NCBI RefSeq assembly: GCF_027587175.1
Contig: NZ_JAPCID010000005.1
Location: 62,001 to 126,000 of the forward strand
Origin: Solirubrobacter deserti
Lineage (GTDB): Bacteria > Actinomycetota > Thermoleophilia > Solirubrobacterales > Solirubrobacteraceae
Length of the DNA stretch: 64,000 nt
Reading direction: 5' to 3'
Below the pieces are notes generated by a model. The model saw only the letters and a list, made by a program, of their open reading frames with translations. It did no database searches and was not told the origin of the DNA. How positions within the stretch are numbered: position 1 is the first letter of the stretch; the number at the start of each line of letters is the position of its first letter. Of this stretch, positions 55,279-61,570 are shown one piece after another. Position numbers and translations under genes: made by a program.

Positions 55279-56404
55279 GTGTCAACGATGATCGAAAGCC
55301 CGCTGGCGCAACTGACCGACGAGGAGATCGACGAGCTCGCGCGCGAATTCGACGCGATCCACGACGAGGTCTTCGCCGAGCTCGGCGAACGCGACCGGCG
55401 CTATATCACGCGCCTGATCCGAGTCCACCGCGAGCTGGCCGTCCTCGGTCGCGTGCTCCTGTTCGGCGCGCGCTACAAGCCCGCGTGGATCCTGGGCACG
55501 GCGACGCTCTCGGTGGCCAAGGTCCTCGAGAACATGGAGATCGGCCACAACGTGATGCACGGCCAGTGGGACTGGATGCACGACCCGTACATCCACTCCT
55601 CCTCCTGGGACTGGGATTCCGCGTCGACGCCCGCGGCGTGGAAGCACTCGCACAACTACGTCCATCACACGTACACGAACATCCGGGACAAGGACAAGGA
55701 CCTCGGCTACAAGATCATGCGGATCGACCCGCACCAGCCGTGGCGCCCGGTCTACCTGCTGCAGCCGGTCTACAACGTCGGGCTGATGGCGTTCTTCGAG
55801 TGGGGGTCGCGTTCCACGACCTCGACCTCGACGCGATCCGCAGCGGGGAGAAGCCGGTCGCCGAGCTCAAGACCGAGCTGCTCGGGATGGCCCGCAAGGC
55901 GGCGAACCAGATCGCCAAGGACTACGTCGCGTATCCGCTGCTGGCGGGCCGCAAGGGGTTCAAGAGCACGCTCGCGGCGAACTTCACCGCGAACGTGCTG
56001 CGCAACGTGTGGGCGCACTCGATCATCTTCTGCGGCCACTTCCCCGACCAGACCTACACGTTCAGCGAAGCCGAGGTCGCCGACGAGAACCGCGGCCGCT
56101 TCTACGTGCGCCAGCTGCTCGGCGCCGCCAACATCGAGGGCAGTCCGCTGTTTCACGTGATGAGCGGGAACCTCGGCTACCAGGTCGAGCATCACCTGTT
56201 CCCCGACATGCCCAGCACGCGCTACTCCGAGATCGCGCCCAAGGTCAAGGACATCTGCGAGCGCTACCGGCTTCCGTACAACTCCGGTCCGTTCCTCAAG
56301 CAGCTGGGCATGTCCAGCGCACGATCCTGCGCCTCGCCTTCCCCGGCGGGCGTCCGCGGCCGAAGCCCGGGCCATATTCCGCGAACGGACGTTCGAGTGT
56401 GTGA
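55279..56404 (+). pseudogene. Membrane fatty acid desaturase with two frameshifts
   Basis: An acyl-lipid/acyl-CoA desaturase with all three His boxes: GHNVMHGQ, HSHNYVHHTYTN and VEHHLFPDMPS. GTG start with AAGGA upstream, 18 bp after the reductase gene, its likely electron donor. The frame breaks at a GGGGG run (55802) after MAFFEWG and continues in another frame from VAFHDLDLDAIRSG to FLKQLGM. It breaks again at 56310, where a third frame gives QRTILRLAFPGGRP to the stop. Each break is repaired by adding one G. As written the product lacks box 3, so either the gene is dead or the sequence has errors here. Confidence 0.75.
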
Positions 56405-56486
56405 CCCCGCACACGAGTCGAACGTGCGTTTGGATGACGCGCCCGAAGGGCAGTCTCAAAGCTCGCAATGAGATTGGAGACTCCCC

Positions 56487-57524: not shown

Positions 57525-57697
57525 GGGCGGCTGGCGGTGGCCAGGGCTGAAATGTCAGCGTGCAGACAAACCGGAACGTCGTCTGCTGGGGCGGAATGCG
57601 TGATCGCCGCCCCATCGCAAGGATTCTCCACGGGTAAGGATCTCCTGGATAGAACCGCGGCGCTGGTGGTTCGTCCTCACGATCCGATGGAGGTCTC

Positions 57698-59422
57698 ATG
57701 CCGCCCAAGAAGCCTCGCGCGAGCAAGCGCAGCGCGAGTACGAAGGCCTCGGCGTTCCCGGATTTGATCTACGCGCAGGCGTCGCCGCGCTCGATCGGCG
57801 GCGGCTCGCTGTTCGACGCGGGGTCCACCGTCACGGCGGCCAACGTCGGCGCGTACGTGTCCGACGCCCGCGTGCTGCAGGCGGCGGTGACGCGGCTGCA
57901 GGAGGCGGGGTTCCGGGTGCTGCAGGTGGCGCCGACGACGATCAACATCGCCGCGCCGCGGGAGACGTACGAGGAGGCGTTCGGGACGACGCTCGTCACG
58001 GAGGAGCGGGAGGTCCTCAAGCCGGGCCAGAACCAGGACACCGCGACGTACATCGACTGCCCGGAGACGGCGCAGTCCGGGCTCATCGACGTGGCCTCGA
58101 GCCGGTTCGCAGACGTGCTCGAAGGGGTGGCGATCGAAGAGCCGATGTACCCGATGCAGAACGCGTTCGCGCCGCTGAAGTCGTACTGGCATCTGCGGGT
58201 GCCGGGGGACGTGTCGCTCGGCGTGAACGCCGACCGCGCGCACCGGGCGGGGGTGACGGGGCGCAACGTGAAGCTGGTGATGGTCGACTCGGGCTGGTTC
58301 GCGCACCCGTACTTCACCCAGCGCGGGTACCGGTCCTCGCCCGTGGTGCTCGGGCCAGCGGCGGTCAACCCCGCGGCCGACGAGAGCGGGCACGGCACCG
58401 GCGAGTCCGCCAACGCGTTCGCGGTCGCGCCGGACATCGACTTCACGATGGTGAAGATCAACTTCGTCAACTCCGTCGGCGCGTTCAACGCGGCGGTGAA
58501 CCTCGCGCCGCACATCATCTCGTGCTCGTGGGGCTCGAGTCAGCCGAACGGGCCGCTCAGCGCGGCCAACCAGGCGCTGGCGGCGGCCATCTCGGCGGCG
58601 GTCGCGGGCGGGATCATCGTCGTCTTCAGCGCCGGAAACGGGCACTGGGGCTTCCCGGGCCAACATCCGGACGTGATCTCGGCGGGCGGCGTGTTCCTGC
58701 AGGCAGACGGCTCGACGCGCGCGTCGGACTACGCCAGCGGCTTCCAGAGCAACATCTATCCGGGGCGCGGCGTGCCGGACGCGTCCGGGCTGGTCGGCAT
58801 GCGGCCGGGCGCGAAGTACATCATGCTGCCGGTCGAGGGCGGCGACGCCATCGACGTCGACGGCTCCGGCGGCACGCACCCGAACGGCGACGAGACGACC
58901 AACAACGACGGCTGGGCGGCGTTCAGCGGGACCTCGGCCGCGGCGCCGCAGATCGCCGGCGTCTGCGCACTCATCCGGGAGGCCTGCGGGCGGCTCACGC
59001 CCGCCGAGGTCAAGGACGTGATCCGGCGCACGGCGCGCGACGTCACCGCCGGCCGCAACCACCCCAACTTCAACCATCCCGCCGGAGCCGGGTACGACCT
59101 GGCGACGGGCGCGGGGCTCGTCGACGCCCACCGCGCGGTGCTGATGGCGCGGGTGCGGTGCCTGCGGGCGATCGGGCCGGTTCCGATCACGCCGGGGCCG
59201 ATCGTGGGGCCCCAGCCCATCGGCCCGCAGCCGATCAACCCAGGCCCGATCGGGCCGCAGCCGATCGGCCCGGGCCCGATCGGCCCGCAGCCCATCGGCC
59301 CGGGGCCCGGCCCGATCAACCCGGGCCCTATCGGGCCCGCGGGCCATCAGGGCCTGTCGGCCGAGGACGCGGACGCGATCGAGGAGCTGCTCGTCAACGA
59401 TGAGATCGACTTCGGCGAGTGA
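57698..59422 (+). CDS. Subtilisin-family (S8) serine peptidase with Gly-Pro-Ile repeat tail
   Basis: 574 residues, ATG with GGAGG upstream. There is no signal peptide; the N-terminus is basic. Residues 50-100 resemble a protease pro-domain (EAGFRVLQVAPTTINIAAPR). The catalytic triad is complete: Asp197 (MVDSGW), His232 (GHGTGES), Ser413 (GTSAAAPQ), with Asn314 (SAGNGHWG) as oxyanion residue. After the domain, residues 493-547 are pentapeptide GPxPI repeats, then an acidic tail (LSAEDADAIEELLVNDEID). It overlaps the radical SAM maturase gene by 23 bp, so it may process, or be, a modified substrate. Confidence 0.9.
   Translation: MPPKKPRASKRSASTKASAFPDLIYAQASPRSIGGGSLFDAGSTVTAANVGAYVSDARVLQAAVTRLQEAGFRVLQVAPTTINIAAPRETYEEAFGTTLVTEEREVLKPGQNQDTATYIDCPETAQSGLIDVASSRFADVLEGVAIEEPMYPMQNAFAPLKSYWHLRVPGDVSLGVNADRAHRAGVTGRNVKLVMVDSGWFAHPYFTQRGYRSSPVVLGPAAVNPAADESGHGTGESANAFAVAPDIDFTMVKINFVNSVGAFNAAVNLAPHIISCSWGSSQPNGPLSAANQALAAAISAAVAGGIIVVFSAGNGHWGFPGQHPDVISAGGVFLQADGSTRASDYASGFQSNIYPGRGVPDASGLVGMRPGAKYIMLPVEGGDAIDVDGSGGTHPNGDETTNNDGWAAFSGTSAAAPQIAGVCALIREACGRLTPAEVKDVIRRTARDVTAGRNHPNFNHPAGAGYDLATGAGLVDAHRAVLMARVRCLRAIGPVPITPGPIVGPQPIGPQPINPGPIGPQPIGPGPIGPQPIGPGPGPINPGPIGPAGHQGLSAEDADAIEELLVNDEIDFGE
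59174..59338 (+). repeat. In-frame repeats encoding GPxPI pentapeptides
   Basis: About ten 15-nt units (core GGCCCGATC / GGCCCGCAGCCGATC) code for GPQPI, GPGPI and NPGPI blocks at the C-terminus of the subtilase. Such DNA is prone to unit gain and loss, so length may vary between strains. Confidence 0.85.
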
Positions 59423-61289
59423 CCCCGCGCCACCGCGGGTGCTGTTGGTCAGCGCGCCGTTCGCGGCGCTGGAGCGCCCGTCGCTCGGGCTCGGCCTGCT
59501 GCAGGCCGAGCTGGAGGCGGCGGGCATCCCGTGCGAGACCCGCTATCTCGCGTTCCCGTTCGCGGACCTGATCGGCCTGCGCGAGTACCAGTGGGTCTCG
59601 AGCGAGCTGCCGTATACGGCGTTCGCCGGCGACTGGCTGTTCACGGCCGCCCTGTATGGCCCGCGGCCAGCGGCGGACGCGGCGTACGTCGAGCGCGTCC
59701 TCACGCGCGAGTGGGGGCTCGACGAAACGGCGGTCCGCCGCCTGCTGCGCCTGCGGGCCTACTGCGAGCCGTACCTGACCCACTGCGTGCAGACGGTCGA
59801 CTGGGACGCCTACGACGTCGTCGGCTTCACGTCCACGTTCGAGCAGAACATCGCCTCGCTCGCGCTGGCGCGGCGGGTCAAGCAGCACCACCCGCACCTG
59901 ACGATCGCGTTCGGCGGCGCGAACTGGGAAGCGGAGATGGGCCGCGAGCTGCACCGCCGCTTCCGCTTCGTCGACCTCGTGTGCTCCGGCGAGGCCGACC
60001 GCTCGTTCCCGGCCGTGCTCGCCGCGCTTCACGGCGACCTCGGCCACGTGCGCGGGATCGTCCACCGCGCCGGCGGAACGTCGACCGCCACCGCGCCCGC
60101 GCCGCTGCTACACGACCTCGACGCGCTGCCGTACCCCGACTATGACCCGTTCCTGCGCGACCAGCAGGCCAGCCCGAGCGCCGCCGGGCTGACGCCGACG
60201 CTGCTGCTCGAGACGGGCCGCGGGTGCTGGTGGGGCGCCCGCTCGCACTGCACGTTCTGCGGCCTGAACGGCAACTCGATGGCGTTCCGCTCCAAGTCGG
60301 CGGACCGCGCGCTGGCGGAGATCCTGCACCTCGGCGAGCGCTACGGGACGACGCAGTTCAATGTCGTCGACAACATCCTCGACATGGAGTACTTCAAGAC
60401 GCTCCTGCCGCGGCTGGCGCTCGAGCACCCCGGGCTCTCGCTCTTCTACGAGGTCAAGGCGAACCTCTCCAACGAGCAGCTCGCGCTGCTGGCGGCCGCG
60501 GGCGTCCGGCGCATCCAACCCGGCATCGAGAGCCTCAACGACCACGTGCTCAAGCTGATGCGCAAAGGCACCACCGCGCTGCAGAACGTGCAGCTGCTCA
60601 AGTGGTGCCGTGAGCACGGCATCCGCGCCGAGTGGAACGTCCTCTACGGGTTCCCCGGGGAGACCGCCGCCGACTACGCCGCCATGCTGGAGCTGATGGA
60701 GCGCATCCGGTTCCTGGACCCGCCGAGCGCGTACGGACCCGTGCGCCTGGACCGCTTTGCGCCCTACCACGACGACCCCGCCGCGTTCGACCTGCAGAAC
60801 GTCCGGCCGCTGGTCCCGTACCGGTTCCTGTATCCGTTCCCGGACGAGGCGCTGATGCGGATCGCCTACTACTTCGACTACGACCACGCGGACGGGCGCC
60901 GCCCGGACGCCTACGCACGCGCCGTGATGGCCGCGGTCGACCGCTGGCAGCGCGAGCCCCGGCGCGGCGCGCTCTGGCGCGTCCCCGGCGGAGACGGCAC
61001 CACGACGGTCGTCGCGGAGCATCCGTCCGGCGCGCGCCACGCGACCGAGCTCACTGGCTGGGAGGCGTGCGCCTACGACGCGTGCGACCGCGTCCGCTCG
61101 CGCGCCGGGCTGCTGCGCGAGCCGTGGGCCGAGAGCGTCGGCGCCGACGCGGTCGAGACGTTCCTGCGCCGCAGCGTCGGCGAAGGCTCGATGGTGCGAG
61201 ACGGCGACCGCTTCCTCAGCCTGGCCGTGACCGTCCCCGCGCGCGCGTGGGCGCCGAGCGCCGCGGACGAGCTCGCGGCGACGGCATGA
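59400..61289 (+). CDS. B12-type radical SAM RiPP maturation protein (rSAM_ocin_1-like)
   Basis: 629 residues. An N-terminal cobalamin-binding-like Rossmann region (VLLVSAPFAALERPSLGLGLL, VVGFTSTFEQNIASLALAR, TIAFGGANWEAEMG) is followed by a radical SAM domain. Its cluster Cys are 276, 284 and 287 (GCWWGARSHCTFCGLNG, CX7CX2C), the spacing typical of the RiPP maturation radical SAM protein 1 family. Further support is NVVDNILDMEYF and RIQPGIESLNDHVLKLM. Relatives are thought to C-methylate or otherwise modify ribosomal peptides. No separate precursor peptide gene is visible; the start lies inside the subtilase gene. Confidence 0.9.
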   Translation: MRSTSASDPAPPRVLLVSAPFAALERPSLGLGLLQAELEAAGIPCETRYLAFPFADLIGLREYQWVSSELPYTAFAGDWLFTAALYGPRPAADAAYVERVLTREWGLDETAVRRLLRLRAYCEPYLTHCVQTVDWDAYDVVGFTSTFEQNIASLALARRVKQHHPHLTIAFGGANWEAEMGRELHRRFRFVDLVCSGEADRSFPAVLAALHGDLGHVRGIVHRAGGTSTATAPAPLLHDLDALPYPDYDPFLRDQQASPSAAGLTPTLLLETGRGCWWGARSHCTFCGLNGNSMAFRSKSADRALAEILHLGERYGTTQFNVVDNILDMEYFKTLLPRLALEHPGLSLFYEVKANLSNEQLALLAAAGVRRIQPGIESLNDHVLKLMRKGTTALQNVQLLKWCREHGIRAEWNVLYGFPGETAADYAAMLELMERIRFLDPPSAYGPVRLDRFAPYHDDPAAFDLQNVRPLVPYRFLYPFPDEALMRIAYYFDYDHADGRRPDAYARAVMAAVDRWQREPRRGALWRVPGGDGTTTVVAEHPSGARHATELTGWEACAYDACDRVRSRAGLLREPWAESVGADAVETFLRRSVGEGSMVRDGDRFLSLAVTVPARAWAPSAADELAATA

Positions 61290-61570
61290 GCGTCGCCGCC
61301 GTCCTCGTCGTCCTGCGCGCCGACACCGAGACGGGCGAGCGCATTCGCCTGTGGTTCGAGCAGGCCGGCTTCACGGCCGGCCCGCTCGTGGGCATCTCGT
61401 TCTCCGTCGAGGCTCCGCGCGAGCTGCTGGAGGAGCGGTTCCCCGACTTCGCCGGCAACGAGGGCACCGGCGCGGAGCTGCGCCTGGACCGGCTGCCGGG
61501 CGACGTCGCCGCCGACGTGCAGGCCGTCGTCAGCGAGGCGCCGCCCGACTTCGGGCCGACGAGCTACTAG
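61286..61570 (+). CDS. Small protein resembling the subtilase pro-domain
   Basis: 94 residues, ATGA-coupled to the maturase gene. By eye its middle (FEQAGFTAGPLVGISFSVEA, followed by PRELLEERF) matches the pro-domain of the subtilase two genes upstream (QEAGFRVLQVAPTTINIAAP, followed by RETYEEAFG), sharing AGF, APRE, EE and F at nearly the same spacing. A free pro-domain could fold or inhibit the protease. This similarity is my observation and is short. The stop overlaps the convergent gene's stop. Confidence 0.75.
   Translation: MSVAAVLVVLRADTETGERIRLWFEQAGFTAGPLVGISFSVEAPRELLEERFPDFAGNEGTGAELRLDRLPGDVAADVQAVVSEAPPDFGPTSY

Follow-up and report, generated by a model that had tools for sequence, protein, structure and literature searches.

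What does a peptide-modifying radical S-adenosylmethionine (SAM) enzyme act upon when its neighborhood shows no gene for a separate precursor? The question is raised by a locus of Solirubrobacter deserti, located in a stretch of 64,000 nucleotides (nt; contig NZ_JAPCID010000005.1) referred to here as the window. Three plus-strand genes stand there in series, read from their open reading frames as a 574-residue subtilase with a C-terminal repeat tail, a 629-residue maturase of ribosomally synthesized and post-translationally modified peptides (RiPPs), and a 94-residue pro-domain-like protein (gene 3). The subtilase and maturase genes overlap by 23 nt and the maturase gene and gene 3 by 4 nt, in agreement with the original prediction for this DNA, whose statement that no small precursor gene is visible also holds at this locus. 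Gene order, conservation, the co-occurrence of tail and maturase, and replacement of the carrier protein were compared across genomes. The evidence converges on the view that the adjacent maturase very probably acts on the repeat tail, and the subtilase is likely to represent a carrier-fused RiPP-type precursor whose tail is modified by that enzyme.

The maturase matches the TIGR03975 model over its entire length (model positions 1–606 of 606) and well above the cut-off, and by this match it belongs to the RiPP maturation radical SAM C-methyltransferases, with peptide methylation as its predicted activity. The CX7CX2C cluster ligands read initially (Cys276, Cys284, and Cys287) were confirmed, the same three cysteines being invariant in the 14 maturases of the clade described below. 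The Pfam B12-binding domain was matched with an E-value of 1.3e-4 (22.2 bits, under the gathering score of 32.1). An enzyme 100% identical to the window maturase is encoded by Solirubrobacter sp. CPCC 204708. In the open-access literature, TIGR03975 is mentioned in two papers, both of which survey environmental communities.

A maturase-based scan of 84,980 genomes revealed 22 loci, of which 13, including that of the window species, have a tailed subtilase directly upstream. The layout thus recurs in 12 further loci, and the 13 are found in six phyla (Actinomycetota, Chloroflexota, Acidobacteriota, Deinococcota, Thermodesulfobacteriota, and Bacillota). All 14 maturases of the clade stand directly downstream of a protein bearing the repeat tail, and the contrary case, in which homologous maturases always lie beside an unrelated precursor, was looked for and not found. 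A putative ribosomal substrate is therefore encoded beside the maturase at each of these loci, as is usual for RiPPs; the familiar small gene of its own, coding for a leader and a short core, is not seen, the tail being fused to a 480-residue protease. The fourteenth locus, L011, has a maturase 55% identical to that of the window, preceded by a nonhomologous BNR-repeat protein (a sub-threshold Pfam match). The C terminus of this protein contains TPIQPIQPRTIQPVQPIHPIQPIQPIEQITPI, a tail of the TPIQPIQP...PIQPIQPIEQ type, and the L011 genome yielded no subtilase of this family. In the maturase tree L011 falls inside the tailed-subtilase clade (support 98/99) as the sister of the window enzyme (support 95/91). 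As the tail is kept while the carrier differs, the constant partner of the maturase is the tail and not the protease.

Subtilase scans with a tail-less query, made independently of the maturase, covered 1359 genomes of four phyla and a plasmid collection. No PxPI-tailed subtilase without a maturase was detected in either set; in the genomes, the known scan centres were recovered, together with tail-less relatives and one relative with another tail. The same tail in genomes lacking the maturase, which would have spoken against the tail as substrate, was thus sought and not encountered. Six relatives in maturase-free genomes stop at the GLVDA...LAK boundary, where the tail would begin, the closest of them (genome G477, E-value 1e-233) ending in ...ESVLLAKG, and no TIGR03975 protein over the cut-off is present in these six genomes. 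The plasmid-borne relatives are likewise without a tail. In the subtilase tree two changes suffice to account for the tail, with most branches among the tailed sequences unresolved. The original prediction had named either the tail or a remote peptide as the substrate. Because the tail is tied to the maturase, in 14 of 14 adjacencies, and maturase-free relatives are tail-less, the former is favored and the latter disfavored.

Within the window tail, 11 of the 13 Ile/Val residues immediately follow Pro, compared with 4.5 expected on shuffling, and none of 2000 shuffles scored as high. Tandem Repeats Finder (TRF) located a 15/30-nt repeat array at 59208–59309, and the GPxPIGPxPI DNA pattern is found nowhere else in the 7.1-Mb genome, which bears out the GPxPI repeat described initially. 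The tails of the 13 subtilases are 44–96 residues long and consist of nearly all Pro, Ile/Val, and one variable residue, with no aromatic residues or Cys; in most of them, P-[IV] order greatly exceeds that of shuffled sequences. All 13 proteins, among them the window subtilase with the acidic tail first noted, end in an acidic helix of the type LSxEDVxALEEMI. AlphaFold2 (AF2) predicts the window tail to be disordered and a helix at residues 555–567. A comparison of tail and catalytic-domain divergence was discarded as uninformative because low complexity inflates tail identity. In the preferred reading, the maturase would methylate the side chains of Pro and/or Ile/Val at unactivated carbons within residues 493–551, and the acidic C-terminal helix would serve as a follower through which the tail docks. 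The protease might afterwards free its modified tail by cutting itself once, or keep the tail as a permanent appendage. Self-release is conceivable given QhpE, a single-turnover subtilase that serves a radical SAM-modified protein.

Several observations weigh against tail modification. Its support is comparative, and the 13 tailed loci were collected via the maturase, so that the adjacency count taken alone is biased. The tail of locus L012 is rich in Pro, Ile, and Val without P-[IV] order, and the BNR-repeat carrier of L011 has no acidic terminal helix, indicating that the helix is not essential everywhere. No recurrent exporter or immunity gene was found in the neighborhoods of the clade loci. 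Homology between the helix and RiPP leaders was considered and rejected, as a position-specific scoring matrix of the helix scored the leaders of stand-alone precursors no better than shuffled leaders.

The maturase could instead act on a remote, unclustered precursor whose leader is removed by the subtilase, leaving the tail as an unmodified linker or docking arm. Leader-removing S8 proteases are common in RiPP clusters (PMC10885120), unclustered proteases exist (PMC8960859), and QhpE, a related subtilase by a model match (NF049966) below cut-off, cuts the leader of a radical SAM-modified protein (PMC7876137). This explanation is nonetheless improbable, since the tail survives the carrier swap in L011 and is lost where the maturase is absent, no small precursor gene recurs over the 13 loci, and maturases outside the clade adjoin repeat-core precursors, one of them with IRQPI repeats. 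Less probable still is a scaffold, in which helix and repeats merely recruit the maturase to the protease and both act on a third protein; conservation of the helix in 13 of 13 subtilases would suit such a role, but the BNR carrier retains the repeats without the helix, and another repeat tail is found with a maturase of an unrelated type (see below). If the tail is modified, as we favor, it may never be released: C-methylation, joined by hydroxylation in some genomes, would turn it into a rigid polyproline-type arm, resistant to proteases, that serves to anchor, export, or regulate the subtilase. We regard this form of the preferred reading as a tentative option. Characterized B12 radical SAM peptide methyltransferases modify peptides that are later released (PMC11285071), and no recurrent anchor or exporter lies nearby; on the other hand, every carrier bears its tail as a single appendage, VRCLGP is the only obvious conserved candidate cleavage motif between protease domain and tail, and the L011 carrier has no protease domain, so the carrier cannot be the releasing enzyme in every case.

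A second pairing was observed at locus L114 (genome G1550), where a distant subtilase relative (E-value 2e-88; NF049966 E-value 2.4e-12, below cut-off) carries a Cys-rich repeat tail of another kind, CYRAPICYRAPVCRRAPIC, which is acidic at its end. The gene for this CYRAPIC-repeat-tailed protein overlaps that for a PqqD-Radical_SAM-SPASM protein (L114:2723-6032, minus strand). PqqD-type domains are RiPP recognition elements. By domain composition, L114 thus combines a protease of the same kind with another tail and with an unrelated type of maturase. A SARP-like regulator gene is located upstream of the pair. It is possible, if doubtful, that one subtilase family repeatedly became its own RiPP precursor, with various repeat tails arising in different lineages, unrelated maturases recruited, and the protease working a single time to free its own modified tail.

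Outside the clade, the Solirubrobacter congener G147 has a 45%-identical maturase after a stand-alone 124-residue precursor with IRQPI repeats, together with ThiF and YcaO genes, and Paracoccus plasmid NZ_CP141053 has a TIGR03975 maturase beside a stand-alone repeat precursor, again with ThiF and YcaO. Both precursors start with an N-terminal leader and finish in GGGFGGLGG, and the repeat core between them is IRQPI (G147) or CVIxQC. The neighbors of acidobacterial maturase homologues are ATP-grasp genes, precursors of a similar kind, or further proteins rich in repeats, and repeat substrates thus seem to recur in the TIGR03975 family. Candidate substrates of other TIGR03975 maturases include the proteins at L108:1248-1982, with PEVITEVRPEVI repeats, L106:6909-7373, with GMGPTPAPAPPPEPE repeats, and L103:6890-7168, which has a leader in common with the L106 protein. 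One acidobacterial genome contains four maturase homologues in ∼10 kb (G234:C53:116995-126596), and in Nonomuraea (L072:4626-6953) a TIGR03975-type maturase is in frame with a leader-like 5′ extension, a possible leader-maturase fusion.

Of the 13 other clade loci, 12 have gene 3; none was detected at L011. The gene 3 profile extends to the N-terminal pro-domains of subtilase relatives (E-values 1e-7 to 4e-15), in line with the initial description of the protein as stand-alone and pro-domain-like, and to small genes that adjoin tail-less subtilases at L053, L054, L055, and L069. Since it also accompanies tail-less relatives, gene 3 is, on these profile matches, a partner of the subtilase and lies outside the modification module; as a stand-alone copy of the pro-domain, it could maintain the protease in a folded, inhibited state until its activity is called for. 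The AF2 model is an α/β fold with a mean predicted local distance difference test (pLDDT) score of 80.6. The top structural match, the pro-kumamolisin pro-domain (1t1e), has a middling Z-score of 7.4, and such middling matches rest on a common fold; a Foldseek search produced nothing at an E-value ≤0.001. PDB sequence searches gave no convincing match for gene 3 or for a fourth gene, which lies downstream of gene 3 in 8 of 14 loci (L010, L013–L017, L020, and L028, with L016 from Kribbella) and encodes a 2-oxoglutarate (2OG)-Fe(II)-oxygenase-like protein. The HxD...H...R motif of a facial triad and 2OG ligand is invariant in these proteins (His155, Asp157, His233, and Arg244; alignment A3), and Pfam 2OG-FeII_Oxy_3 barely recognizes them (best E-value 1.4e-4, under the gathering score). 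This protein is a candidate tail hydroxylase, which would act on the same tail as the maturase. The gene is absent beside the window trio and was not found elsewhere in its genome, an empty answer that alone shows little.

The tail-less relatives have surroundings of their own. Contractile-injection-system genes (Phage_base_V, GPD, and CIS_tube) lie ∼4 kb or less from one of them (L056:5295-7608, minus strand). On Rhizobium and Mesorhizobium plasmids (L071 and L073), such relatives are found amid purine-type gene clusters, with folE, purB, adenylosuccinate synthetase, QueE, IMP dehydrogenase, and nitrile hydratase, or with SAICAR synthetase and purH. A relative on a Paenibacillus plasmid (L068:4857-5980) is interrupted by a frame change.

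Peptidase_S8 is the sole Pfam match of the window subtilase. In an alignment with 11 homologues at 59–67% identity (A1), Asp197, His232, Ser413, and the oxyanion residue Asn314 are invariant in all 12 sequences, so that the S8 domain, the complete triad first reported, and the oxyanion Asn are all in place. The N terminus is Lys/Ser-rich and, as judged by eye and not by SignalP, has no hydrophobic stretch, as is also the case in other tailed homologues whose N terminus is present; this agrees with the earlier reading that a signal peptide is missing, and the subtilase is probably a cytoplasmic protease. Its AF2 model is of low quality except in the pro-domain (mean pLDDT 52.8) and was left out of the fold search owing to this low confidence. 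PADLOC gave no anti-phage defence match for any of the three proteins.

Table 1. Coordinates of the subtilase-maturase locus in the window
Feature	Position	Strand	Basis
GGAGGT ribosome-binding site of subtilase	57689..57694	+	Read from sequence, 3 nt 5′ of first ATG
S8 subtilase bearing the C-terminal repeat tail; carrier and putative substrate	57698..59422	+	Pfam PF00082, E-value 9.8e-21; alignment A1
Pro-domain-like N-terminal region, residues 20–146, predicted α/β	57755..58135	+	AF2 model; gene 3 profile matches in relatives
Catalytic triad span: D197 (58286–58288), H232 (58391–58393), S413 (58934–58936)	58286..58936	+	Invariant in A1
GPxPI repeat tail, residues 493–551; proposed maturase core	59174..59350	+	Sequence, shuffling, TRF; predicted disordered (AF2)
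Acidic terminal helix LSAEDADAIEELL; proposed follower/recognition element	59351..59419	+	13/13 tailed subtilases; helix 555–567 predicted
TIGR03975 radical SAM C-methyltransferase, predicted B12-binding (RiPP maturase)	59400..61289	+	NCBIfam 639.8 bits, cut-off 281.85
CX7CX2C [4Fe-4S] cluster ligands C276, C284, C287	60225..60260	+	Invariant in 14 maturases
Stand-alone pro-domain-like protein, subtilase partner	61286..61570	+	Profiles A4/A5; AF2 pLDDT 80.6; 1t1e Z 7.4

Elsewhere in the window, a fatty-acid desaturase gene (PF00487; 55279–56471, plus strand) is split over two frames (open reading frames 55279–56160 and 55485–56471), and the frame change near 55800 is either a sequencing error or the mark of a pseudogene.

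The arrangement suggests a little-noticed route to modified peptides on a protease carrier in at least six phyla. If this is correct, RiPP searches based on small precursor genes would miss a whole class, and maturase, substrate, and perhaps release protease would form a compact two- to three-gene cassette across at least six phyla. Enzyme-fused precursors would extend from methyltransferases to proteases, a B12 radical SAM methyltransferase would become available whose repeat substrate is long and simple, and bacterial proteins might turn out to bear polyproline arms that are methylated and hydroxylated.

Known systems share parts of this arrangement. The B12 radical SAM enzymes of bottromycin (BotRMT/Bmb) methylate Pro, Val, and Phe side chains, and the bottromycin core precedes a C-terminal follower (PMC11285071); that precursor, however, is short and stand-alone, with no repeat core and no fused protease. 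The G147 and Paracoccus systems have the same maturase family and repeat cores, but with a small leader-bearing precursor, additional ThiF and YcaO proteins, and no subtilase. Among subtilases, the cyanobactin proteases PatA/PatG function in RiPP pathways (PMC10885120) and target a separate precursor, and their model TIGR03895 is matched only weakly by the window subtilase (19 bits, cut-off 421). In the quinohemoprotein amine dehydrogenase system, a cytoplasmic subtilisin-like protease is also partnered with a radical SAM enzyme, QhpE being a single-turnover subtilase for a radical SAM-modified protein (PMC7876137); QhpE differs in cleaving the separate QhpC, with no repeat tail as substrate, and QhpD forms thioethers. 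The window subtilase matches the QhpE model NF049966 with an E-value of 8.5e-5 (22 bits, below the curated cut-off of 165). A published protease-fused precursor was not found in the open-access literature, a weak absence given that most subscription journals lie outside it. Similar in layout are the borosins (OphMA and relatives), in which the core is fused to the C terminus of a pathway enzyme and methylated (PMC11285071). The likeness lies in a substrate core fused C-terminally to a pathway-encoded enzyme; borosins carry the α-N-methyltransferase itself as the fused domain, whereas here that domain is Peptidase_S8 and the C-methyltransferase is separate. Carrier-fused precursors are thus already known as a kind and, judged on the open-access literature, the protease carrier would be a new variant.

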